Shown here in pieces: positions 11,976 through 37,979 of a stretch of DNA of 64,000 nucleotides. Location of the stretch: positions 1,860,001 to 1,924,000 of the forward strand of contig NZ_JAFEUW010000001.1 of NCBI RefSeq assembly GCF_025028335.1. The letters are read 5' to 3'. The position numbers were made by a program, and so were the translations under genes. The DNA is from Brachybacterium sillae. Its GTDB lineage: Bacteria > Actinomycetota > Actinomycetes > Actinomycetales > Dermabacteraceae. Every line of letters begins with the position of its first letter. The stretch's first letter is position 1. The notes under the pieces are model-generated. The model was not told where the DNA came from. It ran no database searches and worked only from the letters and a program-made list of their open reading frames with translations.

Positions 11976-12024
11976 GTGGGAAGAACGTCCGCCTGTTCCT
12001 CGTCGACGGCACCGCCGGCGGGCT

Positions 12025-20407: not shown

Positions 20408-20425
20408 CCCGCACCCTCCCCGACG

Positions 20426-20479
20426 GCGACGCCCCGCCGCCCCGGGACCGGTGTGGTCCGCGGGACGGCGGGGCGTCGC
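20426..20479. terminator. Bidirectional hairpin terminator between thrE and the FNT gene
   Basis: A 14-bp perfect stem (20426-20439 with 20466-20479), with a further inner stem GGACC/GGTCC. It lies between two convergent genes and could serve both strands. Confidence 0.7.
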
Positions 20480-20565
20480 AGGGTCGGGGCAGGGTGACGG
20501 AGGATCAGGACGGGCCGACCCGGTCGGTCGGAACCCGGGGTGACCTCCGGTGGGTCCGCTCGTCC

Positions 20566-21504: not shown

Positions 21505-21799
21505 GGAGTCTCCTGGGGAACGGGATGGGGGCCGCGGGGTGCGGCCATCGGCACCGGGACGCGCCCGGCGCGTGCTCGAGTGTACTCTGGCACACCCGGT
21601 GCGACCAGGGACGTAAGGGGGGAGCGGAGCCCCCTCCGGTCCCGCGTGACGGAACGGTCCGTCCCGCCTGTCGGTCGGTTCGCTACCCTGTCGGGGACCG
21701 TTCATCGCCGACGCGGCCCAGCTCCTGTGTGGTGCGACGAGGTGCGTCGTGCCGCGCCGACATGTGACGGGCCGCGTCCCGCCCGCTTCGGGAGGCAGC
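21505..21799. other. Divergent intergenic region FNT / ppc
   Basis: About 295 bp without a credible gene. It must hold the promoters for the FNT gene (minus) and ppc (plus). GGAGG at 21791-21795 is the ribosome binding site of ppc. I see no clear operator or riboswitch. Confidence 0.5.
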
Positions 21800-24624
<2,825 letters not shown>

Positions 24625-24711
24625 CCTGGGCCGGCGGGGGTGCCACACCGTGGCGGGCCCGTCCCATGCGGCCCCGGGCTCGGCGCGCCCCGGTCCCTGG
24701 TCGTGCGGTGA

Positions 24712-24861
24712 GCCCCGGCCGATGCGCCCTGCCCCGGCCGATGCGCCCTGCCCCGGCCGATGCGCCCTGCCCCGGCCGATGCGCCCTGCCCCGGCCCATG
24801 CGCCCTGCCCCGGCCGATGCGTTCTGCCCCGGCCGATACGCCCCGCCCCGGCCGATGCGCG
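24712..24861 (+). repeat. 19-bp tandem repeat array (about eight units)
   Basis: The unit GATGCGCCCTGCCCCGGCC recurs with a 19-bp period at 24721, 24740, 24759 and 24778, then in diverged form at 24797, 24816, 24835 and 24854. It lies between ppc and the next palindromic repeat and overlaps the start of that repeat. The 24625-24943 region holds nothing else that looks coding. Confidence 0.9.
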
Positions 24862-24911
24862 TCTTGACGTGTCTACTTCCTCTTTCTGGAAACAGACACG
24901 TCAATACGCGC
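24857..24911 (-). repeat. Palindromic repeat copy 2, between convergent ppc and DUF559 gene
   Basis: Left arm 24857-24880 and right arm 24888-24911 pair with about three mismatches around TCTTTCT. It shares the TTGACGTGTCT core with copies 1 and 3. By its loop it lies in the opposite orientation to copy 1. It sits 232 bp after ppc and 32 bp after the DUF559 stop, so it may terminate that minus-strand gene. Confidence 0.85.
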
Positions 24912-24943
24912 GCGATTGTTGGGTCGGGACGCGCGCGATTGCC

Positions 24944-25840
24944 TCAAGCTCCCGCCAGGACCCTGCTCAGGTGGGCGAACAGTGCCCGCGGGTCAGTGAG
25001 GTCCCGTGAGGTCACCCGGATCACCGTCCATCCCATCTGCTGCAGCACCATGTCCTTGCGCCGGTCGCGCTGCCACTGCTGGCGGTCCGTGCGGTGCCAG
25101 TCCCCGTCGTACTCGAGCACCACCTTCTGCTCGCGGTACACCAGGTTCAGGCGGAAGGTCTCACCGCTCCAGGGGCAGCGGATCGTCGGGTTGATGTCAG
25201 GCTCGGGGAATCCGGCCGCGACCAGCAGCAACCTCAGCTTCGTCTCCTGCGGGGATTCGACCAGCTCCCGGGCGCGAGCCAGTGCTCGCCGCAGCCTGCG
25301 GCCGCCCGGTAGCAGAGACGCCGCGGCGGCCTCCGCGCGGAGGCCCTCCAGGGTGACGTGCCACAGCAGCCGCTCCGGGCCCACCAGGGCATCGGTGACC
25401 GCTACCAGTTCGTCGTCGGTGAGGGTCGGTGCGAGTTGCCCCAACAGGGCCAGGGGCGTGGGGAGAGGAACACCCTCGAGACTTTCCACCTTTCCCAGGT
25501 GGCGTCGATGGACGACAACCTTCTGACCAGCAGTGCGGTGTGTTCCTGGCGCGATCGTCACGTGCAACAGGCCGGTGTGGTCGTGCGTCAGGCGGCGTGG
25601 AAGCGGAAGGGCAGCAAGTTCGGCCGCGGTGACGTGTGAGAGGACGGCGCCGGGAATGACGTGGGAGGTGAGCCGCCGGGCCAGAACCGGCAACGGCGCG
25701 GGGTCTGCCGCACTCGTGAGGTAGCCCGGAAAGGGGATGGCGATGTGGGGGCCGCTCAGACGGCGCGGGTGCACCCCTGCCTCCAGCAACCCTCGGCGCG
25801 AATACAGGATGCGGGGCGACGGGGTCCAGAGGCGAGGCAT
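24944..25840 (-). CDS. DUF559-domain protein (putative Vsr-like endonuclease fold)
   Basis: A 298-residue protein of the type common in several copies in actinobacteria. The N-terminal part resembles the type IV toxin-antitoxin AbiEi-like region (RRLTSHVIPGAVLSHVTAAELAALPLP). The C-terminal DUF559 domain (KVVLEYDGDWHR, then RKDMVLQQMGWTVIRV) has the restriction-endonuclease-like fold related to Vsr. ATG 25840 is chosen; the frame is open to 26233, but that stretch is the repeat-rich spacer. The gene lies between two palindromic repeat copies of the same orientation. Its cellular role is unknown. Confidence 0.8.
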   Translation of the reverse strand: MPRLWTPSPRILYSRRGLLEAGVHPRRLSGPHIAIPFPGYLTSAADPAPLPVLARRLTSHVIPGAVLSHVTAAELAALPLPRRLTHDHTGLLHVTIAPGTHRTAGQKVVVHRRHLGKVESLEGVPLPTPLALLGQLAPTLTDDELVAVTDALVGPERLLWHVTLEGLRAEAAAASLLPGGRRLRRALARARELVESPQETKLRLLLVAAGFPEPDINPTIRCPWSGETFRLNLVYREQKVVLEYDGDWHRTDRQQWQRDRRKDMVLQQMGWTVIRVTSRDLTDPRALFAHLSRVLAGA

Positions 25841-25950
25841 GTTGCGACCGTAAGTCGTTGCGGTGTACCGCGTCGCGCATGGGCGGCCGGTGGGGATCAC
25901 CCCGGCATGTGGAGGAAGCCAGGTCCGCGGTGGTGCGCAGAGCCTGCGTT

Positions 25951-26070
25951 GGGGCCGGGGCGTGGGGCACGGGGCGTGGGGCACGGGGCGCGGGGGCCAG
26001 GGCCAGGGCCAGGGCCAGGGGCCTGGGCCGGGGGCCTGGGCGTGGGGTCGGGGGCCTGGGGCCCTGGGGC
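25951..26070 (+). repeat. G-rich low-complexity block
   Basis: Dense runs of three to five G with short imperfect repeats (GGGGCACGGGGCGT and GGGCCA repeats) on the plus strand, upstream of the DUF559 gene. It has G-quadruplex potential. The 25841-26260 spacer contains this block and palindromic repeat copy 3, and no credible gene. Confidence 0.8.
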
Positions 26071-26125
26071 ATGCGGAAGGGCCTCGGGCTGCCGAGGGGG
26101 ACATGTGCCGACACGCCGCAGTGAC

Positions 26126-26186
26126 GCTGCGCGGTTTGACGTGTCTGCTTCCACTATCTGGAAGTAGACACGTCAAACCGCGCAGC
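26126..26186 (-). repeat. Palindromic repeat copy 3, downstream of the FAR-HAD gene
   Basis: Arms 26126-26153 and 26159-26186 pair over 28 positions with one G-T pair, around CTATC. The inner stem is the shared GACGTGTCTGCTTCC core. The outer stem GCTGCGCGGTT differs from copy 1 but is fully matched on the other side. It lies 74 bp after the stop of the minus-strand FAR-HAD gene. Confidence 0.9.
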
Positions 26187-26260
26187 GGGCGGGAGGGCGC
26201 GGTGCGGTGGCGCGCACCGAGGGGCAAGGGCACGGGGCCGCGGGCGCCCCGCCCCCACCG

Positions 26261-28498
26261 TCACCAGTCCAGGATCCGCCAGCGCTTCTTCTTCGCCACC
26301 GCGAACAGGCCGAGGTCGGGTGAGACTGCATGCGGGTGTCCGACGAGCTCCAGCCATGCGGCGTCGGCGTGGGAGTCGCCGTAGCCGTAGGACGCCGCGA
26401 GGTCGGCCCCGCGCTCGGCCGCGTACTTCCGCAGCCAGTTCGCCCGGGCCTCGTCCACTACCGGCGGCGTGGCGAGGAACCCGGTGAGCACGCCGTCGGC
26501 GTCCTCGTCCATGCGGGTGGCGACGACCTCGTCGAACAGGTCCGCGAGCGGTTCCACCAGCACGTCGAGCGCCCCGGTCACCAGCACGGTGCGGTGCCCG
26601 GCCTCGCGGTGCCGGCGGATCACCTCGAGGGCCTCCGGCCGCACCGAGGCGCGGATGCGTTCACCGAGCGGCCCCGCCACGAGCTCACGCAGCTGCGCCG
26701 AGCGGTACCCGGCATACCGGCGGTTGACGCTGCGGATCAGCTCGGAGCGGTCGCGCCGATCCGCCCGCACGAAACCGGGCACCCCCTTGACGAGGCCGCC
26801 GAACTCCGCGGGCCACTGTCTGCGCGGCGTGGTGGCGCGGACGATCGCGAAGTACTGCCGCACCACATTGGTGGAGACCAGGGTGCCGTCGAGGTCGAAC
26901 ACCGCCAGGGCGCCCTCGGCGGGGCGCGGAGCCTCGGCGGGACGGTCGGCGCGGGCGCGCTGCGCGGCTTTCCCGCGGGAGTACGCCTTGGTCAGCTCGG
27001 TGACGGCCGGCAGGTGGTGGTTCTGGAAGTAGTCGGTCCAGTCGATGACGGTGACATCGAAGTCGTGCTGCGCCAGGAACCCCTGCGGCAGGGACTCGCG
27101 CAGGGCACGCGTGTTGGCGTCGTCGAACACCATCTCGGTCTTGGTGTACTGCCGGTACAGCTCGATGTACTTGCGGAGGGTGGTCAGACCCGAGGAGTTG
27201 CGGTGCAGCGCGGAGGCCCACGACCGGGTGCGCGGGGTCCCGGGCAGGCGCGAGACCACGACCTGCCCGGCCTTGGTGGCGAGCTCCTTGGCGCGGAAGC
27301 GCTGCTCGACCATCTCGACCGCCGGGAACGTCCACTCGGGCACGACGATCGGTCGGCCGTGGTCGTCCTCCAGCGGATGGGCGAGGAAGTACTCGCGCAC
27401 CGCGTCGACCATCTGGTGGAAGGGCAGCGGGTTCGAGGTGCCCGACACCACCTGGTAGTAGGCGTCGTCACCGCGGCGGGGCACGTCCTGCGTGGCCAGC
27501 GCGACGATCACGTTCACCACGTAGTCGACGGGGATGATGTCGAGGATGGAATCGGCCAGGCCCGGGAACTCCGGCAGCAGCCCCTTGCCGTACGCCATGA
27601 TCAGCGGGTCGGCGACCTTGTACCCGTCGATCCACCCGGGGAACGGCCGGCGCAGCGCCGATTCGATGATGGACGGCCGCACCACCGACAGGCGATGCCC
27701 GTTGCCCGCCCAGAGGTCCTCGGCGACGCGCTCGGCCATCGCCTTGGTGAAGGTGTAGATGTCGGTCCAGCCGACGGACTGGGCGCGGATGCGGCCGAAG
27801 TCAATCAGGCGCTGGTGCACCCACTCGCGACGCAGCTCCTCGGCGGCGGCGGCCACCGCCTTGGGGCCCATGCGGCCGTCGCGCACCCGCGCGGTGAGCA
27901 TCTGCGAGCGCAGGGTCTCGGGCCGACGGGACTCCGCCTCGACGCGCTCGTGGGCGGCGATCGCCGCGTCGTACTCGGTGCGCCAGTCGACGTCGTGGAC
28001 CAGGCGGCCCTCCTGCCGCAGGCCCTTGGCGATGCCGGAGACGTACGCCGTGGACACGTGCACCACGTGCGGGGACTGCCCGGAGGCGAGCAGCGCCTCG
28101 TAGAGGTTGCGGGCACCGCCGACGTTGGTGCGGAACGCCTCGTCGATCGGCGGGTCGAAGCTCACCGAGCTGGCGGAATGGATGACCGTGTCCACCGGCA
28201 TGGTGATCGCGGGCATGTCGGTGAGGTCCCCCTCGAGGGCGCGGACGCGCTCGCGGAAGATCCGCTCGACCTGCTCGGCGCTGCTGCGCTCGGCCCAGGA
28301 GCGGAAGACCGGCTTGCGCAGCAGACCCTCCAGGCGCTTCTGTCCGGTCTGGGTGCCCTTGGGGCGGACGACGCAGACGACGTCGACGTCGTCGAAGCCC
28401 TCCAGCAGGGCCTGCAGCACGGCCTGCCCCAGGAAACCGGTGACGCCGGTGAGGAGGATGGTGCGGCGGCCGGTGCCGCCCTGGTCGGTCTGGGTCAT
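26261..28498 (-). CDS. Fatty acyl-CoA reductase fused to HAD-IB phosphatase
   Basis: A 745-residue two-part enzyme. Residues 1 to about 500 form a fatty acyl-CoA reductase: the nucleotide loop LLTGVTGFLGQAVLQAL, the SDR serine region HVVHVSTAYVSG, and YTFTK as the YxxxK catalytic pair, followed by a FAR_C-like helical region. Residues about 540-745 are a HAD-IB phosphatase: AVFDLDGTLVSTNVV (motif I), VLVTGALDVLVE (motif II) and YGYGDSHADAAWL (motif IV). The reductase should convert acyl-CoA to fatty alcohol; the phosphatase substrate is unknown but is likely a glycerophospholipid intermediate. It is divergent from the SDR-PlsC-ADPS operon. ATG 28498 is chosen because it opens the Rossmann domain; the frame upstream looks non-coding. 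Confidence 0.85.
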   Translation of the reverse strand: MTQTDQGGTGRRTILLTGVTGFLGQAVLQALLEGFDDVDVVCVVRPKGTQTGQKRLEGLLRKPVFRSWAERSSAEQVERIFRERVRALEGDLTDMPAITMPVDTVIHSASSVSFDPPIDEAFRTNVGGARNLYEALLASGQSPHVVHVSTAYVSGIAKGLRQEGRLVHDVDWRTEYDAAIAAHERVEAESRRPETLRSQMLTARVRDGRMGPKAVAAAAEELRREWVHQRLIDFGRIRAQSVGWTDIYTFTKAMAERVAEDLWAGNGHRLSVVRPSIIESALRRPFPGWIDGYKVADPLIMAYGKGLLPEFPGLADSILDIIPVDYVVNVIVALATQDVPRRGDDAYYQVVSGTSNPLPFHQMVDAVREYFLAHPLEDDHGRPIVVPEWTFPAVEMVEQRFRAKELATKAGQVVVSRLPGTPRTRSWASALHRNSSGLTTLRKYIELYRQYTKTEMVFDDANTRALRESLPQGFLAQHDFDVTVIDWTDYFQNHHLPAVTELTKAYSRGKAAQRARADRPAEAPRPAEGALAVFDLDGTLVSTNVVRQYFAIVRATTPRRQWPAEFGGLVKGVPGFVRADRRDRSELIRSVNRRYAGYRSAQLRELVAGPLGERIRASVRPEALEVIRRHREAGHRTVLVTGALDVLVEPLADLFDEVVATRMDEDADGVLTGFLATPPVVDEARANWLRKYAAERGADLAASYGYGDSHADAAWLELVGHPHAVSPDLGLFAVAKKKRWRILDW

Positions 28499-28640
28499 GG
28501 AGGATCCCCTCAGGGTCGAGGCGGGGCCGACGGGCCCGAGACTGGGCGTGCCCGGAGAGCCGATCGTTCGGCCCACGGCACGGGCACGGGATATGGCCCG
28601 CCACCTGGGCGGGAGCTCTACCTGTTGTATCGTAGCGCGC
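28499..28640. promoter_or_regulatory. Divergent promoter region of the lipid cluster
   Basis: 142 bp between the FAR-HAD start and the SDR start. TATCGT at 28628-28633, preceded by TG, lies 7 nt before the SDR ATG with no ribosome binding site, so that operon may be leaderless. No clear operator is seen. Confidence 0.4.
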
Positions 28641-29414
28641 ATGCAGAGGGCCCTGATCACCGGTGGCACGGCAGGCATCGGCGCAGCGTTCGCGCGCGCT
28701 CTGGCGGAGCGCGGCGCTCACCTCGTGCTGGTGGCCCGCGACGCGGAGCGGCTGGACGCGGCGGCCCGCGATCTGACCGCCCGCCACGGCATCGAGGTGG
28801 AGACGATCACGGCGGATCTGTCGCGCCGTGAGGACCAGCAGCGCGTGGCGGATCGCCTGGAGGCGGATCCCCCGATCGATGTCCTGGTGAACAATGCCGG
28901 GTTCTCCGTGCGGGCGAGCCTGCTCGATCCCGATCTGTCCGAGCACGACCGCGGCGCCGAGGTCATGCAGCGGGCGGTGCTGAAGCTCGGGGGCGCGGCG
29001 GGCCGGGCGATGACGCGCCGCGGTACCGGCCACATCGTCAACGTGGCCTCGGCCAGTGCCTGCGTCACCCAGAACAACTACTCGGCGCTGAAGGCGTGGA
29101 CCACGAACTACTCGGAGTCCCTGGGCGTGCAGCTGCGCGGCACGGGCGTGCATGTCACGACGCTCATGCCCGGGTGGGTGCGCACCGAGTTCCACCAGCG
29201 CGCCGGCATCAAGGGTTCCTCGATCCCCGGGCCGCTGTGGCTGTCGGCTGACCAGCTCGTCGCCGAGTGCCTGCGCGACATGGAGCGCGGTCGGTCGGTG
29301 TCGGTGCCGAGCCTGCGCTGGAAGCTCATCGTCGGCGGTCTGCGGATGCTGCCGCGCCCGGTGATCCACCGCCTGAGCGGTCTGCTGACCTCCCGGCGCG
29401 ACGGGGAGCGCTGA
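28641..29414 (+). CDS. Short-chain dehydrogenase/reductase
   Basis: A 257-residue NAD(P)-dependent SDR. The TGGTAGIG cofactor loop, NNAG and the YSALK catalytic YxxxK pair are present. The loop between the serine (NVASASA) and the tyrosine is about three residues shorter than in classical SDRs. The C-terminus is hydrophobic and basic (KLIVGGLRMLPRPVIHRL), suggesting membrane contact. As first gene of an operon with PlsC and an alkyl-DHAP-synthase-like enzyme, it is a good candidate for an acyl/alkyl-DHAP reductase; the mammalian enzyme DHRS7B is also an SDR. That assignment is inference. Confidence 0.85.
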   Translation: MQRALITGGTAGIGAAFARALAERGAHLVLVARDAERLDAAARDLTARHGIEVETITADLSRREDQQRVADRLEADPPIDVLVNNAGFSVRASLLDPDLSEHDRGAEVMQRAVLKLGGAAGRAMTRRGTGHIVNVASASACVTQNNYSALKAWTTNYSESLGVQLRGTGVHVTTLMPGWVRTEFHQRAGIKGSSIPGPLWLSADQLVAECLRDMERGRSVSVPSLRWKLIVGGLRMLPRPVIHRLSGLLTSRRDGER

Positions 29415-29416
29415 GC

Positions 29417-30316
29417 ATGAGCGAGCAGCCGCCGCAGGGGCGGAGGTCGTCCGTCCCGAAGCTGCCGACCCCCAAACTGCCGCAGCCGCCGAAACTCCCG
29501 CAGCCGCCGAAGCTGCCGGCCCCTAAGCTCCCGCAGCCGCCCAAGCTCCCGCAGGCCCCGAAGCTGCCGTCCCTCTCGGCCCGCTCCCGCGGGGAGGGTT
29601 TCGACATGAGCGATGAGCGGTTGAAGGTCTACCGCTCCCGCTGGCGCGCCGGTCTGCGGCGCGTGCTGCAGCGGGGGGTGTTCCGGCAGGTCCTCGCCAC
29701 GGCGATCCGTCCCGAGGCCGTCGTCGCCCGCCGTGTGCGCTCGGTCCGCGGCCCGTTCGTGCTGGTGGCGAACCACACCAGTCACCTCGATGGGCCGCTG
29801 CTGAACCTCAGCCTGCCGTGGACGCAGGCGCGGCTGCTGTCCACCGGGGTGGCCGCCGACTACTTCTTCACCGTCGCCCATCGCCGCCTGTTCGTGCGGT
29901 GGATGCTCAATGCCTTCCCGATCGACCGCGATGGGTCGCGCAAGAACTCCGGCACCTCCCGGCGTCTGCTGCGCAGCGGTGTGCCGATCCTGGTGTTCCC
30001 GGAGGGCGGTCGCTCCCGCGACGGCGTGATGGGGGAGTTCAAACCGGGGGCCGCGGCGCTCGCCGCCGGTGTCGGTGTGCCCGTGATCCCCGCCGCGATC
30101 GTCGGCGCCCACGAGGCGATGCCGAAGGGCCGCAACTGGCCTCGGCCCGGCCGTCCCCGGGTGCGGGTGGTGTTCGGCGAGCCGATGCTCGCCGGGCCCG
30201 ACGAGACGGTCGCGGACTTCACCGCGCGCATCCGCGCGTCGGTGGCTGATCTGTACGCGGCGCACCGGGCCGAGGTGCTCGGTGACGCCCAGGAACCCGG
30301 AACGGGGGAGCGATGA
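29417..30316 (+). CDS. PlsC-family acyltransferase with Pro-Lys repeat N-terminus
   Basis: A 299-residue glycerol(phosphate) acyltransferase. The catalytic motif NHTSHLD (NHX4D) is near residue 118 and FPEGGRSRDG forms the phosphate-binding motif. The first 55 residues are unusual: about eight repeats of PKLP-type units (PKLPQPPKLP). A second methionine after the repeat (MSDERLKVY) could be an alternative start. It begins 2 bp after the SDR stop and overlaps the next gene by 4 nt. In this context it could acylate dihydroxyacetone phosphate or an alkyl-glycerol phosphate; a standard lysophosphatidic acid acyltransferase role is the alternative. Confidence 0.88.
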   Translation: MSEQPPQGRRSSVPKLPTPKLPQPPKLPQPPKLPAPKLPQPPKLPQAPKLPSLSARSRGEGFDMSDERLKVYRSRWRAGLRRVLQRGVFRQVLATAIRPEAVVARRVRSVRGPFVLVANHTSHLDGPLLNLSLPWTQARLLSTGVAADYFFTVAHRRLFVRWMLNAFPIDRDGSRKNSGTSRRLLRSGVPILVFPEGGRSRDGVMGEFKPGAAALAAGVGVPVIPAAIVGAHEAMPKGRNWPRPGRPRVRVVFGEPMLAGPDETVADFTARIRASVADLYAAHRAEVLGDAQEPGTGER

Positions 30317-32022
30317 CGAGGACGCCGACTGCAGCCGAGGTCAAGCGGCACACCTGGTGGGGTTGGGGCAGCGAGGACGTGTCCTTCCACGTCGACGACA
30401 AGCCGGCGTTCGCGCCGTTCGTGCGGAAGCAGATCGGCCTGGACCTGGCCACCAGCACCCCGCAGCCCGTACCGCAGCTGGAGACCTTCGACGTCCCGGA
30501 CTCCCGCCTGCCGGCGGCCCTGCGGCAGCAGCTGGTCGGGATCGTCGGCGAGGACGCCGTCGTGGACGACGACGAGCTGCGCGTCGTGCATTCCTTCGGG
30601 CGCTCCGCCACCGACCTGTTCCGCGTCCGCACCGGCGACTTCGAGCGCCTGGTCGACGCGGTCGTGTACCCGGCCTCCGAGGAGGAGGTCGCCGCGGTGC
30701 TGCGCCTGGTGTTGGAGAAGGACCTGGTGCTGATCCCCTACGGGGGCGGCTCCTGCATCTCCGGCTCGGTGACGCCCGACCCCGCCGAGCAGCGTCCGAT
30801 CCTGTGCCTGAACATGGGCCGGATGCGGCAGGTGCTGGAGATCGACGAGACCGCCGGTCTCGCCCGCGTCCAGGCCGGTGCCTACGGCCCCGACCTGGAG
30901 GAGCAGCTGTCCGCGGAGGGTTGGACCGTCGGTCACTTCCCGGACTCCTTCGCGTACTCCACCGTCGGCGGCTGGGCGGCCACCCGCTCCAGCGGTATGC
31001 AGTCCGACAAGTACGGCGACATCGCCGACATCGTCCGCGGCCTGCGGATGGTCCACCCGCAGGGCACCCTGGTGGTGCGTCCGCTGCCGTCGCGCTCCAC
31101 GGGCCCGTCGGTGCAGGAGATGGTGATCGGCTCGGAGGGGCGCCTCGGTGTGATCACCGAGGTGACGCTGCAGGTGCATCGCATCGCCCCGGTGCGGCAG
31201 GTGATCGCCTACATGTACCCCGATTGGGAGCACGGCCTGCGCGGCATGCACGCCATCGCCCGCTCCACCGAGGTGTCACCGACCTTCACCCGCCTGTCGG
31301 ACGGCCCGGAGACCGCCTTCAGCCTGTCGATGGTGAAGGAGCCGAGGTCGGCCAAGGGCCGGGTCACCGCGAAGGTGCAGGACGGCCTGTTCGCGTACCT
31401 GCGCCGCCGCGGCTGGAAGGTCGACAGCGAGATGTGCATCTCGTACGTGTGCTTCGAGGGAACCAGCGAATCCGTCGAGCGCCAGAAGAGCATCGTGAAG
31501 CAGATCGTGAAGCGCAACGGCGGCATCTCCCTGGGCTCCGGCCCGGGGGCGATCTACGACCAGAAGAAGTTCGACACCCCGTACCTGCGGGACTTCCTGC
31601 TGAACCACCGGGTGTTCGGTGACGTCTCCGACACCGCCGCCCCGTGGTCGCGGCTCAACGAGGTGCACGACGCCGTCTACGGCGCCTACCGGAGGGCGAT
31701 GGAGGCGCAGGGCCTGCAGGGCTTCATGTTCTGCCACATGTCGCACAGCTACCACGCCGGGGCGTGCCTGTACTTCACCTTCGCGGTGCCGTACACCGAT
31801 GACGCCTCGGCACTGGAGCAGTACGGGGCGGTGAAGCGGGCCGTGCAGGATGCCTTCCAGGAGCACGGCGCGACCCTCTCGCACCACCACGCGGTGGGCA
31901 CCGAGCATCAGCCGTGGATCGAGCAGGACGCCGGCCCTGTCGGCACCGGCATGGTGCGCGGCCTCTTCGCCACCGCCGACCCGGGCCGCAACCTCAACCC
32001 CGGCAAGATCGTCAGCCCCTGA
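30313..32022 (+). CDS. FAD-binding oxidase, alkyldihydroxyacetonephosphate synthase-like
   Basis: A 569-residue flavoprotein of the VAO/PCMH type. The FAD domain has IPYGGGSCISGSV and FPDSFAYSTVGGWAATRSSG, and later GSEGRLGVITEV. Features pointing to ADPS (AGPS) rather than to lactate or glycolate oxidases are the N-terminal WWGWG, the GGWAATRSSGM segment with YGDIADIV, the His run LSHHHAVGTEH near the C-terminus, and NPGKIV at the end. ADPS exchanges the acyl group of acyl-DHAP for a fatty alcohol, making the ether bond. It overlaps the PlsC gene (ATGA). Membrane-bound relatives in peroxisomes have the same length. Confidence 0.88.
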   Translation: MTRTPTAAEVKRHTWWGWGSEDVSFHVDDKPAFAPFVRKQIGLDLATSTPQPVPQLETFDVPDSRLPAALRQQLVGIVGEDAVVDDDELRVVHSFGRSATDLFRVRTGDFERLVDAVVYPASEEEVAAVLRLVLEKDLVLIPYGGGSCISGSVTPDPAEQRPILCLNMGRMRQVLEIDETAGLARVQAGAYGPDLEEQLSAEGWTVGHFPDSFAYSTVGGWAATRSSGMQSDKYGDIADIVRGLRMVHPQGTLVVRPLPSRSTGPSVQEMVIGSEGRLGVITEVTLQVHRIAPVRQVIAYMYPDWEHGLRGMHAIARSTEVSPTFTRLSDGPETAFSLSMVKEPRSAKGRVTAKVQDGLFAYLRRRGWKVDSEMCISYVCFEGTSESVERQKSIVKQIVKRNGGISLGSGPGAIYDQKKFDTPYLRDFLLNHRVFGDVSDTAAPWSRLNEVHDAVYGAYRRAMEAQGLQGFMFCHMSHSYHAGACLYFTFAVPYTDDASALEQYGAVKRAVQDAFQEHGATLSHHHAVGTEHQPWIEQDAGPVGTGMVRGLFATADPGRNLNPGKIVSP

Positions 32023-32030
32023 GACCCGCC

Positions 32031-32429
32031 GTGAGCAGCCCCGACCCGGTGCGCCTAAGCCTCGCCCTCCCGCCCGCCGAGGCGGTGCGCGCGGTGCGCG
32101 ACCGGCTCGGACCGCTCGGGTGGAGGGTGCGGGAGATGCCGTCGCCGGTTGACAGCGACGACGCGAGCACCACTGTGCGTCTGGAGCGCGGCCGCCGGGG
32201 ACTGACGGTGCTGGTGGGGGCGCTCGCGGGGCGGCACATGGCGGCCAGCGCACAGATCGTGCTCCGTCCCGCAGGCGCCGGCACCCTGCCCTGTGGCTCA
32301 GGGTCCTCTGCCGCGGTCACCACCCTCCACTACCTGCCCGACAGCGGTCGGGCGCTGGGGGGTCTGCTGGGGGAGCGCCGCGCGCAGCGGTGGCACACGG
32401 AGGCGGTCGAGGCTCTGCGCCGCCCGTGA
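32031..32429 (+). CDS. Hypothetical protein, last gene of the lipid operon
   Basis: 132 residues from a GTG 8 bp after the ADPS-like stop. It is rich in Arg, Ala and Leu with no membrane segment or signal peptide. It starts SSPDPVRLSLALPPAEAVRAV and contains a beta-rich middle (TTVRLERGRRGLTVLVGAL). I do not recognise a family. Its tight spacing suggests co-transcription with the lipid genes. Confidence 0.65.
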   Translation: MSSPDPVRLSLALPPAEAVRAVRDRLGPLGWRVREMPSPVDSDDASTTVRLERGRRGLTVLVGALAGRHMAASAQIVLRPAGAGTLPCGSGSSAAVTTLHYLPDSGRALGGLLGERRAQRWHTEAVEALRRP

Positions 32430-32470
32430 TCCCCGACCCCGCCGCACCCTGCAGGAGCCGGACATGACGA

Positions 32471-32500
32471 AGGCCCCATCACCGGGTGGTGACGGGGCCT
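32471..32500. terminator. Hairpin terminator between the lipid operon and tRNA-Arg
   Basis: Stem 32471-32483 with 32488-32500 (AGGCCCCATCACC against GGTGACGGGGCCT, one mismatch) and a GGGT loop. It lies between the plus-strand operon and the minus-strand tRNA and could serve both. Confidence 0.65.
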
Positions 32501-32509
32501 CGTACGGGG

Positions 32510-32582
32510 CGCGCCCGGAGGGATTCGAACCCCCAACCTTCTGATCCGTAGTCAGATGCTCTATCCGTTAAGCTACGGGCGC
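32510..32582 (-). tRNA. tRNA-Arg (anticodon ACG)
   Basis: On the minus strand the acceptor arms GCGCCCG and CGGGCGC pair, with discriminator G. The anticodon loop CTACGGA gives ACG, usually modified to ICG (decodes CGN). The T-loop GTTCGAATC is present. Confidence 0.97.
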
Positions 32583-32712
32583 TCATCGACGAACCGACCT
32601 GCTCAACAATAGTCGCAGCAGTCCCTCGCCGCCACTTGAGGGTGCATGAGTCGGCTCACACCGTCGGCACCGGCTGCGCCAGCTCCCGGGACCCGCGTGC
32701 GGCCGGTGCTCG

Positions 32713-33255
32713 TCACTTCCAGAACATGAGCAGGGCGCCACCCAGCATGAGCATCCCGAAGCCGACGGCGAGGTTCCAGTCACCGATCGGGGCGGGCAGC
32801 TGACCGGAGCTGAGGTATGCGGTGACCAGGTACGCGAGCCCCAGGACGAGCAGCGTGAGGGCCAGCGGCACCAGCCACACCGGGTTCGGGCGCACGGTCT
32901 CGGCACGACGGCGGGTGGAGGTGCGGGCACGCTCGGCCTCGGCGGAGGCCCGCACACGGCGGGTGGCCTCGGAGCGGGCGTCGCCGGCCTCCGGGCGGCG
33001 CGGCGTCGGATCGACCGCGCGGGTTCCTCGCTTCGCACGGCCGCCGCGCCCCGCGCGTTCCTCGCGGGCGTTCTCGTCACGGTCCCGGGCGTCACGCTCC
33101 TGCGTGTCACCGTCCGTCAGGCCCCCGGCGGCACCGGGCTCAGTGTCCGCCTGCCCGGGGCGGCGCGGGCCGCGGTCGGGACCGGACCCGACGGGCTCGT
33201 CGTCGAAGCCGTCGAAGAACGAGGTGTCGTGGTGCGTCGTCCTGCTCGCCGCCAT
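32713..33255 (-). CDS. crgA: Cell division protein CrgA, long N-terminal extension
   Basis: A small membrane protein that, in actinobacteria, interacts with FtsZ and septal peptidoglycan synthases to coordinate division. The C-terminal about 65 residues are the CrgA core: PNPVWLVPLALTLLVLGLAY, then LPAPIGDWNLAVGFGMLMLGG and MFWK, giving two membrane helices. The N-terminal about 115 residues are charged and low-complexity (RDRDENAREERAGRGGRAKR), making 180 residues against the usual 80-95. ATG 33255 is chosen. Its position beside DUF881, pabA and pknB matches the mycobacterial order. Confidence 0.9.
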   Translation of the reverse strand: MAASRTTHHDTSFFDGFDDEPVGSGPDRGPRRPGQADTEPGAAGGLTDGDTQERDARDRDENAREERAGRGGRAKRGTRAVDPTPRRPEAGDARSEATRRVRASAEAERARTSTRRRAETVRPNPVWLVPLALTLLVLGLAYLVTAYLSSGQLPAPIGDWNLAVGFGMLMLGGALLMFWK

Positions 33256-33350
33256 GGATGGGGGACCTTCCGCCGGAGGAGCGCCCATCGGTCGATGGGC
33301 CATGGACTAGCGTATAGCCGACCATCCCGGCACCCCAGGTGGAGGAGCGC

Positions 33351-34139
33351 ATGAAGCCCTCACGCTCGCCCGGCGACGAGCCCCCGACGCAGCGGCGACG
33401 CGACGCCCTGCGCACGCTCGGTGTGGGGACCGTGGGTGTCGCCGCCGGTCTGCTGTTCACCACCAGCGCGCGTCTGGCCGGGCCGGAGGGTATCCGCGAC
33501 GAGACCGCGTCGGTCACCGACCTGTTGCGCCGGCAGGACCGGGAGAACGCCCGACTGACCGAGGTCAACGCCGCCAAACGCGCCGACCAGGACCGCCTCG
33601 CCGCCGAGGCGGGTCATGCCCCTGAGGACCTCCCCGAGCTCGCCACCACCGCCACCCGGGTGGGTCTCGCGGCCGTCGAGGGCCCCGGCCTGCGGGTGTC
33701 CCTGAGTGACGCGCCCACCTCCGCCCTGACCACCGTGGAGGGTGTGCGACCGGACGACCTGGTGGTCCACCAGCAGGACATGGAGGCGTACATCAACGCC
33801 CTGTGGGCCGGGGGAGCGGAGGCGATGATGCTGCAGGACCAGAGGGTGATCAACGGCAGCGCCTTCCGCTGCGCCGGCAACACCCTGCTGCTGGAGGGCC
33901 GGGTGTACTCCCCGCCGTTCGTCGTCACTGCCATCGGTGACCGCGACGGCATGATGCGCGCCCTGGAGGCCGCCGAGGGCGTCATCCTGTACCGCCAATG
34001 GCGCGACCACGTGGGCCTGGGGGAGCGCATCGAACGACTCGCCCGCCTGGAGCTTCCCGCGTACGACGGCACTCTCGCTCTGCAGGAGGCGCGCCCGCTC
34101 ACGGCCTCGGTCGCTCGACGCGCGGGGGCGCCGCGATGA
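33351..34139 (+). CDS. DUF881 family protein
   Basis: A 262-residue membrane-anchored protein. An N-terminal helix (RTLGVGTVGVAAGLLFTT) follows a short basic leader. A coiled-coil stretch (TDLLRRQDRENARLTEVNAAKR) leads to the DUF881 domain (GPGLRVSLSDAP, then HQQDMEAYINALWAGGAEAMMLQDQRV). The equivalent gene in mycobacteria (Rv0012) has the same neighbours. Function unknown, presumed cell envelope. GGAGGAG precedes the ATG, and the stop overlaps the sortase start (ATGA). Confidence 0.9.
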   Translation: MKPSRSPGDEPPTQRRRDALRTLGVGTVGVAAGLLFTTSARLAGPEGIRDETASVTDLLRRQDRENARLTEVNAAKRADQDRLAAEAGHAPEDLPELATTATRVGLAAVEGPGLRVSLSDAPTSALTTVEGVRPDDLVVHQQDMEAYINALWAGGAEAMMLQDQRVINGSAFRCAGNTLLLEGRVYSPPFVVTAIGDRDGMMRALEAAEGVILYRQWRDHVGLGERIERLARLELPAYDGTLALQEARPLTASVARRAGAPR

Positions 34140-34852
34140 GTGTGCGCCGCGCGATCGGTTCCGCGATCGGGATCCTGGGGGAGCTGATGATCACCCTGGG
34201 TGCCCTGTTGATGCTGTTCCTGGTGTGGCAGCTGTGGTGGACCGATGTGACGGCGGGTCGGGACCAGGAGCAGATCGTCGCGCAGCTCGACAAGGAGTGG
34301 GCGCCAGTCGACGGCCAGGAGGTCGCGACGCCCCGCACGGACGCCCCGCCGCCGGTGGCGCAGCCGCAGGACGAGAAGGTGTGGGGGACGATGTGGATCC
34401 CGGCCTTCGACAAGCCGCGCATGCCGCTGGCGGAGGGGGTGAGCCTGGAGCGTGTGCTGAACGTGAAGGGCACGGGCCACTACCCCGACACCGCCCTGCC
34501 CGGCGAGGTCGGCAACTTCTCCGTGGCCGGCCACCGCACCACCTACGCCCGGCCGCTGCACGACATCGACCGTCTGCAGTCCGGGGATCCGATCGTGGTG
34601 GAGACCGCCGAGGCGTTCTACGTGTACGAGGTGACGGCCTCGCAGATCGTCATGCCGGATGCGGTGGAGGTGATCGCCCCGGTGCCGGGACAGCCCGGCC
34701 GGGAGCCCACGGAGCGGATGCTCACGCTCACCGCCTGCCACCCCCTGTACTCGGCGCGGGAGCGGTACATCGTCCACGCCCGTTTCGCGTACTGGACCCC
34801 GCGTTCCGAGGGCGTCCCGCCCGCGTTGGCCGACGAGATCCAGGAGGGCTGA
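34136..34852 (+). CDS. srtE: Class E sortase
   Basis: A 238-residue membrane-anchored transpeptidase. It has an N-terminal membrane helix (LMITLGALLMLFLVWQLWW), a Pro-rich linker, and a catalytic domain with the His in VAGHRTTYARPL, Cys in LTACHPLYSARERY and Arg in that same ARERY run. Class E sortases attach LAXTG proteins in actinobacteria; no substrate with such a motif is visible in this window. It is co-transcribed with DUF881 and the small protein downstream. Confidence 0.92.
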   Translation: MSVRRAIGSAIGILGELMITLGALLMLFLVWQLWWTDVTAGRDQEQIVAQLDKEWAPVDGQEVATPRTDAPPPVAQPQDEKVWGTMWIPAFDKPRMPLAEGVSLERVLNVKGTGHYPDTALPGEVGNFSVAGHRTTYARPLHDIDRLQSGDPIVVETAEAFYVYEVTASQIVMPDAVEVIAPVPGQPGREPTERMLTLTACHPLYSARERYIVHARFAYWTPRSEGVPPALADEIQEG

Positions 34853-34854
34853 TC

Positions 34855-35019
34855 GTGTACGGATGGCTGTGGCGCCACCTCCCCGGCCCGGCCCTGGTGC
34901 GGGTGCTGATCCTGCTGGTGTTGGCGGCGGCGGCGGTGGCGGTGCTGTTCCAATGGGTGTTCCCCGCCATCGCCCCGTACATGCCGTTCAACGGCAACAC
35001 CGTCGGCGGCGAGGGCTAG
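34855..35019 (+). CDS. Small single-pass membrane protein
   Basis: 54 residues from GTG 34855, with CAGGAGG 7 nt upstream. One membrane helix (ALVRVLILLVLAAAAVAVLF) is followed by WVFPAIAPYMPFNGNTV. A protein of this size and ending is commonly found after sortase E and DUF881 in actinobacteria. Function unknown. It converges with pabA after 13 bp. Confidence 0.8.
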   Translation: MYGWLWRHLPGPALVRVLILLVLAAAAVAVLFQWVFPAIAPYMPFNGNTVGGEG

Positions 35020-35032
35020 CCGGCTCGGCCTC

Positions 35033-35704
35033 TCACCGCTGGGCGAGCAGCGGCGCCAGGCCCTCGGCGCGGTCGGCTGCGGGGTAGCCGTCGCACATCT
35101 CCAGGAACGCTGCGAGCAACCGGTGGCCGTGCTGGGTGAGCACGGACTCCGGGTGGAACTGCACGCCGTGCAGCGGCAGGGTGCGGTGCTGCAGCCCCAT
35201 GATCACGCCATCCTCGGTGCGCGCGGTGACCAGCAGCTCCTCGGGGACCGTCTGTGGCACCACCGCCAGGGAGTGGTAGCGGGTGGCGATGAACGGGGAG
35301 GGCACCCCCGCGAACACCCCCTGGCCGTCGTGGTGGACCTCGCTGGTGCGGCCGTGCATGAGCTGCGGGGCGTGGGTGACGGTGGCTCCGTACGCCTGCG
35401 CGAGCGCCTGATGCCCCAGGCACACCCCGAACATCGGCACCCGGTGCGCGGCGCAGGCCGCGATCACCTCGAGGGACCGGCCGGCGGTGTCGGGATTGCC
35501 GGGGCCGGGCGAGACCAGCACCCCGTCGACCCCGGTCAGGTCCACCGTGCCGTCCGGGGCGGTGGGCACGGCGTCATTGCGGACGACGGTGCACACGGCC
35601 CCCATCTGCTCGAGGTAGCCGACGATGGTGAACACGAAGCTGTCGTAGTTGTCGATCACCAGCACCCGGGCACCGGTGCCCCCCGCGGCGGCGGACTCAG
35701 CCAT
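35033..35704 (-). CDS. pabA: Glutamine amidotransferase, PabA/TrpG type
   Basis: A 223-residue class I glutaminase subunit that supplies ammonia to a PabB or TrpE partner for folate or tryptophan synthesis. The family motifs are present: IDNYDSFVFTIVGYL, SPGPGNPDTAG, the nucleophile Cys in GVCLGHQALA, and the His/Glu in VQFHPESVLTQHG. The start at ATG 35704 lies inside the end of pknB (8-nt overlap) and in the same strand, so translation is coupled. No partner gene is in the window. The mycobacterial orthologue (Rv0013) sits in the same neighbourhood. Confidence 0.93.
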   Translation of the reverse strand: MAESAAAGGTGARVLVIDNYDSFVFTIVGYLEQMGAVCTVVRNDAVPTAPDGTVDLTGVDGVLVSPGPGNPDTAGRSLEVIAACAAHRVPMFGVCLGHQALAQAYGATVTHAPQLMHGRTSEVHHDGQGVFAGVPSPFIATRYHSLAVVPQTVPEELLVTARTEDGVIMGLQHRTLPLHGVQFHPESVLTQHGHRLLAAFLEMCDGYPAADRAEGLAPLLAQR

Positions 35705-37979
35705 TCCCGTTGCCGTTCCCGTTGCCGTTCCCGTTGCCATTTCCGTTCCCGTTGCCGTTATCTCTGCCGTTCTCATTGTTCTGCCCGGGCGCCTGGGCCG
35801 GCCCGATGCCCTGGGGGCTGGTCTGGTCGGCGGGCGGCTGGCTGCTCGAGGGGCTCTGCGACGGCGAGGGTGACTCGGCCGGTGCACTCGAGGACCCCGA
35901 CGACTCCTCGGGAGAGGACGGCGGGGGGCTGCTGGGCGACTCCCGCGGCGGCGGCCCGGAGGACACCACGAGTGTCACGGTGGCGCCGGCATCGACCTGC
36001 GACCCGGCGGCGGGATCGGTGCGCACGACGAAACCCTCCGCGACCGACTCGGATTGCTCGGTGCGCACCTGCACCCCGAACCCGGCCTCGGAGAGGGCAC
36101 GGCGGGCCTCCTCCTGCGGGCGGCCGACGACGTTCGGCATGGTCTCCGGGCCGGGTGCCGCAGCCACCACCAGGCGCACGGTGGAGCCCGCGGGCGCGGT
36201 CCGGTCACCGCCACCCTGCGGGGTCTGTTCCAGGACGGTTCCGGCGCTCTCGTCGGTCGACTCGCGGGTGGTCTCCTCGACGGTGAAACCCTGCTCCTCG
36301 AGGGTGGCGCGAGCCGCGTCGACCTGGGTGCCGACGACGTTCGCGATCGGGACCTCACCGGAGGCCAGCCACACGGTGACCTCCTGGCCCGATTCCACCT
36401 GCGCCCCGGCCTGCGGATCGGTGCGGCTGACCCGCCCGGACTCGACACCGGGGGCGTCCTCCTCCCCACCGGAGACCATCACCAGGCCGGCGCTCTCCAG
36501 GGCGGTGCGCGCCTCGTCGGCGGTCATCCCGGACACGTCGGGCACGCTGACGGCGGACGGCCCCGACGAGACCGTCACCACGACGGTGGAACCGGGATCG
36601 ACGGAGGCGCCGGCGGCCGGGGCCGTGGCCGTGACCTCCCCGGCGGGAGCCTGGTCCGAGGGGGCCTGGGTGAAGCGCGGCGCCAACCCCAGGTCCGCGA
36701 GCTGAGTGCGGGCCTGCTCCTCGGTGGTGCCGACCAGCTGCGGGACCTGCACGGTCTGCGGGCTCTCACCCTCCCAGGGCCGCCACAGCAGCAGCGCGGT
36801 CACCAGCACACCCAGCACCGCTGCGGCCAGCAGCGCCCACAGCCATCCCAGGCTGCGGCGCCGCTTCTCGGGGGACTCCTCGGGGGCCGGGGCGACGGCG
36901 ACCTGCCCGGTCGGGGCGCCCGCGGCCGGAGCGGTCCCCGCAGCGCCTGCACCGACGGCACCCGCGGCGCCGAGAGCCGCCGCCGCGGGACCGACCGTCG
37001 GCAGGGCCTCGGTGCGCTCGTCGTACGGGGAGAGCACCGTGGTGGGGGCGTCCAGCGGGGCGGTCCCCGCGACCATCGACCCCGAGCCGCCACCGGACGC
37101 GCCGGTCACCAGGTGGGGGGCATTGCCCGAGATGACGCGGGCGATGTCGCGGGAGAACTCCACCGCGGTGGGGTAACGGTGCGTGGGATCCTTCGCCAGG
37201 CCCGTGAGGACCACCTGATCCATGGCCGGGGGGATCGCCGGGTTGAAGGTGGACGGCGGCACCGGCTGCTCGCGCACATGCTGGTACGCGATGGCGACCG
37301 AGGAATCACCCTCGAACGGCGGACGGCCGGTGAGCAGCTCGTACATCACGCAGGCGGCTGAGTAGAGGTCGCTGCGGGCGTCGACGATCTGTCCGCGCGC
37401 CTGCTCGGGGGAGAGGTACTGCGCGGTGCCCATCACCGCCTGCGTGGCGGTCATCTGGCTGGTGGAATCGGCCACCGCCCGGGCGATGCCGAAGTCCATC
37501 ACCTTGACCGTCCCCGCGGGGGTGATCATGACGTTGCCCGGCTTGATGTCACGGTGAACGATGCCCTGCCGATGCGAGTAGTCCAGGGCCGACAGCACCC
37601 CCGCCATGATCTCCCCGGCGCGGGCCAGCGGCATCGGGTCCTCGGCGGAGATGGAGGACCGCAGGGTCGAACCCTCCACGTACTCCATGACGATGTACGG
37701 GATCGTGGTGCGGTTCCCGGCCACGTCGGTGGCGGTCTCCTCCCCGGTGTCGTACACCGCCACGATCGCCGGGTGGTTCAACCCGGCGGCGGACTGCGCC
37801 TCGCGACGGAACCGCTCCTGGAAGTTCTCGTCGCGAGCCAGGTCGGCCCGCAGGATCTTCACCGCGACGGTGCGGTTCAGGCGCCGATCGGTCGCGAGGT
37901 ACACGTCGGCCATGCCGCCGGTGCCGAGGCGGTGGCCCAGCTCATAGCGGTTGGAGAGCATCCTCGGTTCGTCGCTCAC
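35697..37979 (-). CDS. pknB: Ser/Thr protein kinase PknB with four PASTA domains
   Basis: A 760-residue membrane kinase that senses muropeptides or lipid II and controls growth and wall synthesis. The kinase domain (residues about 12-275) has GTGGMADVYLA, VAVKIL, HRDIKPGNVMI, MDFGIARA and the activation loop TSQMTATQAVMGTAQYL. A Pro/Ala juxtamembrane linker and a membrane helix (LWALLAAAVLGVLVTALLLW) follow, then four PASTA repeats (VPQLVGTT, VPDVSGMT, IANVVGTQ, MPNVVGRP). The C-terminus is Ser/Pro rich and ends in about ten Asn-Gly pairs. The start overlaps the pknA stop (ATGA). Confidence 0.96.
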   Translation of the reverse strand: MSDEPRMLSNRYELGHRLGTGGMADVYLATDRRLNRTVAVKILRADLARDENFQERFRREAQSAAGLNHPAIVAVYDTGEETATDVAGNRTTIPYIVMEYVEGSTLRSSISAEDPMPLARAGEIMAGVLSALDYSHRQGIVHRDIKPGNVMITPAGTVKVMDFGIARAVADSTSQMTATQAVMGTAQYLSPEQARGQIVDARSDLYSAACVMYELLTGRPPFEGDSSVAIAYQHVREQPVPPSTFNPAIPPAMDQVVLTGLAKDPTHRYPTAVEFSRDIARVISGNAPHLVTGASGGGSGSMVAGTAPLDAPTTVLSPYDERTEALPTVGPAAAALGAAGAVGAGAAGTAPAAGAPTGQVAVAPAPEESPEKRRRSLGWLWALLAAAVLGVLVTALLLWRPWEGESPQTVQVPQLVGTTEEQARTQLADLGLAPRFTQAPSDQAPAGEVTATAPAAGASVDPGSTVVVTVSSGPSAVSVPDVSGMTADEARTALESAGLVMVSGGEEDAPGVESGRVSRTDPQAGAQVESGQEVTVWLASGEVPIANVVGTQVDAARATLEEQGFTVEETTRESTDESAGTVLEQTPQGGGDRTAPAGSTVRLVVAAAPGPETMPNVVGRPQEEARRALSEAGFGVQVRTEQSESVAEGFVVRTDPAAGSQVDAGATVTLVVSSGPPPRESPSSPPPSSPEESSGSSSAPAESPSPSQSPSSSQPPADQTSPQGIGPAQAPGQNNENGRDNGNGNGNGNGNGNGNGNGNG
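35702..35759 (-). repeat. Hexanucleotide repeat coding the Asn-Gly tail of PknB
   Basis: On the minus strand GGCAAC/GGGAAC-type hexamers run for about 58 bp, encoding NGNGNG. The array runs up to and includes the ATG of pabA. Copy number could change by slippage in multiples of 6 without a frame change. Confidence 0.85.

Follow-up and report, generated by a model that had tools for sequence, protein, structure and literature searches.

A conserved actinobacterial gene cluster with an alkyl-dihydroxyacetone-phosphate synthase and a reductase-HAD fusion, a probable route to ether glycerolipids

Introduction

In animal peroxisomes, the pathway to ether glycerolipids consists of the fatty acyl-CoA reductase FAR1, the acyltransferase GNPAT, alkyl-dihydroxyacetone-phosphate synthase (ADPS, also named AGPS) and an acyl/alkyl-dihydroxyacetone-phosphate (DHAP) reductase. 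The Rubrobacterales reportedly contain mixed ether/ester lipids, to judge from a title in a reference list. In the literature that we found, ADPS-based ether lipids of bacteria rest mainly on Myxococcus, where the effect of the AGPS gene is described as minor (PMC9131029), and an earlier survey reports AGPS homologues in many phyla, including Actinobacteria (PMC11868695). Here we analyze a compact gene cluster in a 64,000-nucleotide stretch of the Brachybacterium sillae genome (contig NZ_JAFEUW010000001.1, C1:1860001-1924000 of a 2.67 Mb assembly that is 99.99% complete), which is called the window throughout. An earlier note on this DNA, made from its letters alone, had read the locus as an ADPS-based ether-lipid cluster, and both the identity of its flavoenzyme and the conservation of its neighbourhood support that reading. 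We consider it highly probable, on sequence evidence, that the cluster makes 1-O-alkyl glycerolipids by the chemistry of animal peroxisomes.

Results

The flavoenzyme of the cluster belongs to the ADPS family

The locus consists of the following features, all five open reading frames of which lie where the earlier note had placed them:

26261..28498, minus strand: fusion of a fatty acyl-CoA reductase (FAR) with a HAD domain (FAR-HAD), 745 aa (Pfam NAD_binding_4 4.1e-47, HAD 3.3e-36)
26315..26908, minus strand: HAD domain of the FAR-HAD fusion (TIGR01490 116.5 bits, cut-off 98.3)
28499..28640, no strand: divergent spacer of 142 bp between the FAR-HAD and SDR genes
28641..29414, plus strand: short-chain dehydrogenase/reductase (SDR), 257 aa, proposed alkyl-DHAP reductase (adh_short 3.4e-35)
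29417..30316, plus strand: PlsC-type acyltransferase, 299 aa, proposed sn-2 (or DHAP) acyltransferase (PF01553 1.7e-21)
30313..32022, plus strand: ADPS/AGPS, 569 aa (FAD_binding_4 and FAD-oxidase_C; active-site positions R327, R426, Y487 and H524-H526)
about 32031..32429, plus strand: small fifth open reading frame, 132 aa with an assumed GTG start, no family

The length of the spacer and all motifs quoted earlier were likewise confirmed. The SDR and PlsC genes are separated by 2 bp, and the PlsC and ADPS genes overlap at ATGA.

The flavoenzyme is a member of the ADPS/AGPS family. Its best match in the PDB by phmmer is the Dictyostelium ADPS (8.2e-104, 37% over 509 aligned residues), followed by the guinea-pig enzyme (6e-79, 31% over 518), and the next protein after these ADPS matches is a D-lactate dehydrogenase at 3e-20. 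With an AlphaFold2 model built from 12 sequences (pLDDT 80.9, pTM 0.82), Foldseek places ADPS/AGPS structures at ranks 1-37 of the top 50 (E 3.6e-45 to 7.8e-39) and a D-lactate dehydrogenase at rank 38 (3.8e-27). The fold is the FAD-binding one of the VAO family and lies nearest to the ADPS structures. The best NCBIfam model is GlcD with 118 bits, far below its cut-off of 567.9. An identity as D-lactate or glycolate dehydrogenase, for which the earlier note had left room if the AGPS His motif were lacking, is rejected on the sequence search, the GlcD score and the fold search; the active site and the tree also point to ADPS, and the His motif is present. Residues R327, R426 and Y487 align with R352, R447 and Y508 of the Dictyostelium enzyme, the numbering of the PDB chain and of PMC3509576 differing by a constant offset of +3 for all three, and mutagenesis has found these three residues important for catalysis (PMC3509576). 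The same residues align with R419, R515 and Y578 of guinea-pig ADPS, of which R419H and Y578F mutants are named in the titles of PDB entries among the Foldseek matches, and the HHH active-site loop (H524-526) aligns with guinea-pig H615-617. We take guinea-pig R515 and the His positions to be catalytic as well. The motifs around the Arg, Arg, Tyr and HHH positions occur in all 64 members of the window's ADPS clade that were examined, and WWGWG and the PDSF motif in 63 of them.

In a carefully built tree of 51 selected rows, the window's ADPS clade (15 rows) has support of 100/100, joins the Dictyostelium and guinea-pig ADPS at 95/82, and together with them joins one ADPS of Gemmatimonadota at 100/99, the gene of which lies directly behind a FAR gene. 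A quick tree of 106 rows gives the same groupings with lower support (SH-aLRT 90 and 94). The sampled ADPS-like proteins of Streptomyces, Nocardia and Mycobacterium (one protein in the last case) branch apart from the window's clade, and both trees, whose rows do not include the M. xanthus AGPS, lead us to reject a place for the flavoenzyme among the general ADPS-like groups of actinobacteria.

The cluster is conserved within the genus and beyond it

The conserved-neighbourhood search proposed in the earlier note gave a strongly positive result at loci of the genus, of the order and of other families. SDR, PlsC and ADPS genes stand together in all 29 short genus loci (L003-L031), and all four genes stand together in the same divergent order in all 16 wider ones, where the spacer between FAR-HAD and SDR measures 147-299 bp, as extrapolated from tblastn starts. 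The two genes are divergent in 21/21 loci measured, and they are co-directional in other loci, such as L048, L189 and L190. The spacer of the window contains one 8-nt inverted repeat (arms 28547-28554 and 28581-28588) and presumably holds both promoters. ADPS is present in all 35 other genus genomes searched and in 41/41 listed genomes of the window's family, its own included. The ADPS gene is truncated where a contig stops in G006, and in an 85% complete genome (G023:C1:3011079-3012772) it is split into two matches by an internal TGA, reflecting either a sequencing error or a decayed copy.

A contig scan extended the comparison to other families; the loci named from it are the best 80 of 577 ADPS relatives and were found partly through the HHH motif, so that the HHH frequency among them is biased. 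Six of these 80 belong to the window's ADPS clade. Full clusters were found in Brevibacterium casei, Phytoactinopolyspora limicola and a metagenome-assembled genome (MAG) of the Microbacteriaceae; a Propionibacteriaceae MAG carries SDR, PlsC and ADPS genes on a cut contig, and a Kineococcus ADPS of this clade lies on a contig too short to judge its neighbours. Outside the clade, 63 of the 74 named loci, several of them short, have no match at 1e-6 to the FAR, HAD, PlsC and SDR models, and the other 11 match one model only: FAR in L106 (1e-71) and L149 (1e-8), PlsC in L138 and L140, and SDR in seven. The strongest of these 11 is the Gemmatimonadota locus with a FAR gene directly before ADPS. 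In the plasmid collection, FAR-HAD at 1e-40 matches a single record, a 2.35 Mb plasmid of Streptomyces sp. NBC_01450, which is also the best (56%) of 45 ADPS-like plasmid records, 19 others being listed at 35% or less. This plasmid carries the whole divergent cluster (L230, NZ_CP109481.1 1071080-1092732, a region for which the collection lists no features), which suggests horizontal transfer.

A search for further conserved neighbours returned mostly shadow reading frames and one clear extra, a TetR-like gene judged by eye. It lies near the cluster at L048:13294-13860, L104:12815-13384, L186:10970-11623, L187:11140-11784 and L192:1827-2393, all outside the genus, and no relative from window positions 20001-40000 clustered with these five.

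FAR-HAD accompanies one type of ADPS in the order

The FAR part of the fusion (residues about 14-501) is of the alcohol-forming type, and the HAD-IB domain spans residues about 531-728. The best PDB match is a fatty acyl-CoA reductase (7eoz, 3.9e-43). The FAR motifs TGxxGFLG and YxxxK are present in 44/44 FAR-HAD rows; the Sterile/FAR_C domain scores 1.7e-8 in the window protein, with 35.0 bits against a curated cut-off of 35.4, and reaches E 0.001 or better in all 12 FAR-HAD members scanned.

In what follows, a gene counts as absent when no match reaches the threshold given. A sample of the order (297 genomes; ADPS at 1e-60, FAR-HAD at 1e-40) contains ADPS in 80 genomes, 62 of them at identities of at least 52%, which we designate ADPS-A, and 18 at 34-40%. 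FAR-HAD occurs in 71 genomes of the sample, namely in 62/62 with ADPS-A and in 9 of the 235 others, leaving 226 with neither (Fisher's test, 1e-54). Only two of the 18 genomes with lower-identity ADPS have FAR-HAD. In 46 of these 62 genomes, a single contig carries the ADPS-A and FAR-HAD genes no more than a few kb apart. They are unlinked in the other 16 (12 of family f14 and four of f8), three of which have them 0.7-1.4 Mb apart on one contig and 13 on different contigs, some of them short.

The wax ester synthase/diacylglycerol acyltransferase WS/DGAT (PF03007) was found in 12 of 55 genomes given to the scan. None of the 14 window-family genomes and none of the 29 linked-type genomes given, out of the 46 of the order sample, contains it; it is over cut-off in 3/4 genomes of f8-g26, in 2/2 of family f58 and in 7/13 of the LarA type described below. 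The model PF10520, which we take to cover the CarF/PEDS1 desaturase of aerobic plasmalogen (vinyl-ether) producers, matched in 0/55 genomes, and its control also matched in no genome, so that the zero count does not demonstrate absence.

FAR-HAD has a second set of partners

In a phylum sample, FAR-HAD is found at 1e-60 in 92 of 396 genomes, only three of which, the window's included, also have ADPS at 1e-60. Twelve loci from FAR-HAD genomes without ADPS-A were opened. All 12 have a zinc alcohol dehydrogenase near FAR-HAD, nine have a LarA-family protein and eight a PlsC, and eight have all four together; of the three loci lacking LarA, two stop short of the contig's LarA gene, and the third comes from a genome that carries it on another contig. 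Operons of FAR-HAD, zinc alcohol dehydrogenase, LarA and PlsC with no ADPS nearby can be seen at L199:6450-12535 and L202:2746-8977, and further loci of this kind are L198, L200, L204, L207, L208, L210, L218, L219 and L228. By the PlsC model, the PlsC proteins of these operons are of the window's kind (5e-53 to 2e-80), and two LarA proteins scanned with NF052592 (LarAH14/15/16) score 892 and 863 bits against a cut-off of 740. No match to the LarA protein was obtained at 1e-30 in the plasmid collection.

LarAH14/15/16 passes its cut-off in 8/297 genomes of the order sample, all among the nine with FAR-HAD and without ADPS-A; the ninth, G089, is 62% complete. Matches below cut-off occur in three more genomes of the order, one of which has ADPS-A (G092, 76 bits). 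The ADPS-A and LarA kinds are thus mutually exclusive in this sample, an exclusion that concerns ADPS-A only, since lower-identity ADPS occurs in G052, G057, G450 and G631. In a phylum subset of 80 genomes, LarAH is over cut-off in 56 of 59 genomes with FAR-HAD (chosen from 91, mostly less complete ones being omitted) as against none of 21 with ADPS and without FAR-HAD, five of which score 522-536 bits, below cut-off. LarC, which is required for the nickel-pincer cofactor (PMC11796402), was found in 14 of 16 FAR-HAD genomes without ADPS-A compared with 11 of 31 ADPS-A genomes given. In a FAR-HAD tree of 44 rows (43 with a known partner state, LarAH not having been searched in its three named genomes), the partner changes at least three times, too few switches for a significance test, and within f8 the ADPS-bearing and the LarA-bearing genera form a sister pair with support of 100/100.

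The HAD domain, SDR, PlsC and the fifth reading frame

The nucleophile Asp of the HAD domain is kept in 44/44 FAR-HAD rows. The second Asp of the DxD motif (window residues 533-539) is kept in 25 and replaced in 19, by Glu in ten, His in four, Ala in four and Gln in one, and the loss spans genomes of both the ADPS and the LarA kind. The column that we assigned to the Lys of motif III holds Arg in 43/43 rows that reach it. VFDLDGT, with both Asp residues, is kept in the window, in the window's family and in Brevibacterium. With the second Asp replaced in 19/44 rows, phosphatase action is unlikely to be a conserved step, and the loss hints at a non-phosphatase role. The dephosphorylation of alkyl-glycerol phosphate that the earlier note had tentatively ascribed to this domain is therefore unlikely to be a general need of the system; the window's own copy, with both Asp residues, could still have phosphatase activity.

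The best NCBIfam model for the SDR is mycolate reductase (155 bits, below the cut-off of 380), and its NNAG and YxxxK motifs are invariant in five rows, as are NHxSHxD and PEGxR of PlsC in ten. PlsC need not act as the DHAP acyltransferase: operons that lack ADPS also retain a PlsC of this kind, which makes sn-2 acylation as likely as DHAP acylation, and the source genome has four PF01553 matches, so that the DHAP acyltransferase may be another protein. Window positions 29455-29573 hold a 51/18-bp repeat that encodes a proline-rich N-terminal tail of PlsC (KLPQPPKLP type), and in most of the 29 short genus loci the PlsC matches begin only near residue 50. The fifth reading frame, counted earlier as a member of the cluster, has no Pfam or NCBIfam match at 0.001, weak and variably placed relatives within the genus (31-42% identity) and no counterpart at 1e-5 in the clusters of Brevibacterium, Phytoactinopolyspora and Microbacteriaceae; it is outside the conserved set and probably not part of the pathway.

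Elsewhere in the window, positions 12064-12519 hold a perfect tandem duplication with a 228-bp unit (100% match), adjoining the 4-kb step of lowest GC (8001-12000, 65.9%), and positions 24712-24860 hold an array of 7.8 copies of the 19-bp unit GCCCCGGCCGATGCGCCCT.

Discussion

The scheme that we propose for the cluster follows the chemistry of animal peroxisomes. The FAR domain would reduce acyl-CoA to a long-chain fatty alcohol, and DHAP would be acylated either by the PlsC of the cluster or by a different acyltransferase encoded in the genome. In acyl-DHAP, the flavoenzyme would then replace the acyl group with the fatty alcohol, forming the ether bond of alkyl-DHAP, which the SDR would reduce to 1-O-alkyl-glycerol-3-phosphate, and PlsC would most likely add the sn-2 acyl chain. 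Family membership, active-site residues, grouping with proven ADPS enzymes, gene linkage and co-occurrence are direct results of this study, and they suggest the substrates, the sequence of reactions, the end product and what PlsC and SDR each contribute, as proposed here.

Several observations weigh against this proposal. The ADPS of Actinoplanes sp. TBRC 11911, a member of the window's clade, has none of the other genes within 10 kb, the span searched. Two genomes of family f58 outside the order (G643 and G685; L180 and L181) carry ADPS-A and no FAR-HAD at 1e-60; PlsC stands beside ADPS in both and several WS/DGAT matches are present, and these carriers may use another source of fatty alcohol. 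FAR-HAD and PlsC also occur in operons without ADPS and are therefore not ADPS-specific. The Fisher value overstates the support, because related genomes within an order do not count as independent samples, and the eukaryotic ADPS rows form long branches in both trees. In Myxococcus, disruption of the AGPS gene MXAN_1676 is described as lowering the ether lipid only slightly (PMC9131029), and in Pontiella, which has ElbD homologues, ether lipid is reported as undetected (PMC11868695).

Among the alternatives, the one that fares best overlaps with our own proposal: the core enzymes would act as described, yet the product would be a minor neutral or secondary ether lipid, such as an alkylglycerol or an ether glycolipid, instead of a bulk alkyl-acyl phospholipid, with the HAD domain dephosphorylating the intermediate wherever DxDGT is kept. 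We regard this as possible but distinctly less probable than not. VFDLDGT in the window, its family and Brevibacterium is consistent with it, as are the HAD protein ElbB of the myxobacterial elb operon (PMC9131029) and the suggestion that PlsC-HAD fusions near WS/DGAT make diacylglycerol (PMC10351704); the loss of the second Asp in 19/44 rows of both kinds and the Arg in 43/43 rows at the putative motif III Lys argue in the other direction.

A broader question is raised by the LarA operons. The mutual exclusion of ADPS-A and LarA, the shared kind of PlsC and the partner switches in the FAR-HAD tree suggest that FAR-HAD and PlsC form a core that can be combined with either of two partner pairs. 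That this core is an ether-lipid core, in which the ether step is carried out by one of two unrelated modules, either SDR and the flavin enzyme ADPS or a zinc alcohol dehydrogenase and a LarA nickel-pincer enzyme, is a speculation that we hold to be rather improbable. If true, the LarA module would give actinobacteria a new route, dependent on a nickel-pincer enzyme, to an ether glycerolipid or an equivalent one derived from an alcohol. The exchange of SDR and ADPS for alcohol dehydrogenase and LarA yields a concrete hypothesis for the role of a LarA-type enzyme, a group in which LarAH15 from Phytophthora has been described as a gluconate 2-epimerase (PMC11770544).

It is very unlikely that the flavoenzyme is instead an FAD-dependent 2-hydroxyacid dehydrogenase or an orphan oxidase of the VAO family and that the cluster serves another lipid or catabolic pathway. 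GlcD is indeed the best NCBIfam model, and the 63 ADPS-like loci outside the window's clade without lipid neighbours fit such a view, but the GlcD score is far below cut-off, the E-value for ADPS is better than that for D-lactate dehydrogenase by over 80 orders of magnitude, and the active-site residues, the tree and the tight association with FAR-HAD all favour ADPS. Least probable of all, to the point that we reject it for this cluster, is that FAR and the acyltransferase serve storage by producing wax esters or free fatty alcohol, with ADPS as a bystander: FAR enzymes are described as supplying wax-ester synthesis in many bacteria (PMC11948995), a PlsC-type acyltransferase adjoins and some of the genomes scanned have WS/DGAT, but WS/DGAT is found in 0/14 window-family and 0/29 linked-type genomes given and FAR-HAD accompanies ADPS-A in 62/62 genomes of the order sample. 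In those f8-g26, f58 and LarA-type genomes that have WS/DGAT, wax esters could be made.

The ADPS-based route to ether glycerolipids thus remains our preferred explanation of the cluster, and it has two implications. A compact four-gene set, present in several other families and on a Streptomyces plasmid, offers a direct way to test what a bacterial ADPS does, and the position of the window's ADPS clade next to the eukaryotic enzymes bears on the origin of the latter.

In the parts of the open-access PMC literature covered by our searches, we came upon neither this actinobacterial cluster nor the FAR-HAD/alcohol dehydrogenase/LarA operon. Compared with the peroxisomal pathway, the window encodes together an ADPS with its catalytic residues, a FAR of the alcohol-forming type, an SDR and an acyltransferase; it differs in that the acyltransferase is of the bacterial PlsC type and that the FAR carries a HAD domain, FAR1 being described as tail-anchored (PMC9131029). 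The Myxococcus operon MXAN_1676-1674 likewise has AGPS beside a FAR, an acyltransferase and a putative NAD-dependent oxidoreductase, but its FAR is fused to a GNPAT-like acyltransferase, while the FAR of the window is fused to HAD, a distinction that we draw from the published description (PMC9131029). The elb operon of Myxococcus (ElbD, the HAD protein ElbB and ElbE) resembles the window in combining FAR, PlsC-like acyltransferase, HAD and NAD-dependent oxidoreductase functions. In contrast to the window cluster, ElbD has acyl-CoA synthetase and acyl carrier protein domains, and the operon is described without an AGPS (PMC9131029); no AMP-binding (acyl-CoA synthetase) or acyl carrier protein domain was found by Pfam in the genes of the window cluster, which sets it apart from the ElbD type. 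The Ger/PlsA route also yields bacterial glycerol ethers, but Ger acts on the sn-1 ester and the route, as described, proceeds without an ADPS (PMC11150832, PMC11868695). The chemistry proposed here is already known, from the peroxisomal pathway and from the AGPS operon proposed in Myxococcus (PMC9131029). As far as our searches show, what is new is the arrangement of FAR-HAD, SDR, PlsC and ADPS, its distribution, its occurrence on a plasmid and its exclusive exchange with the LarA pair.

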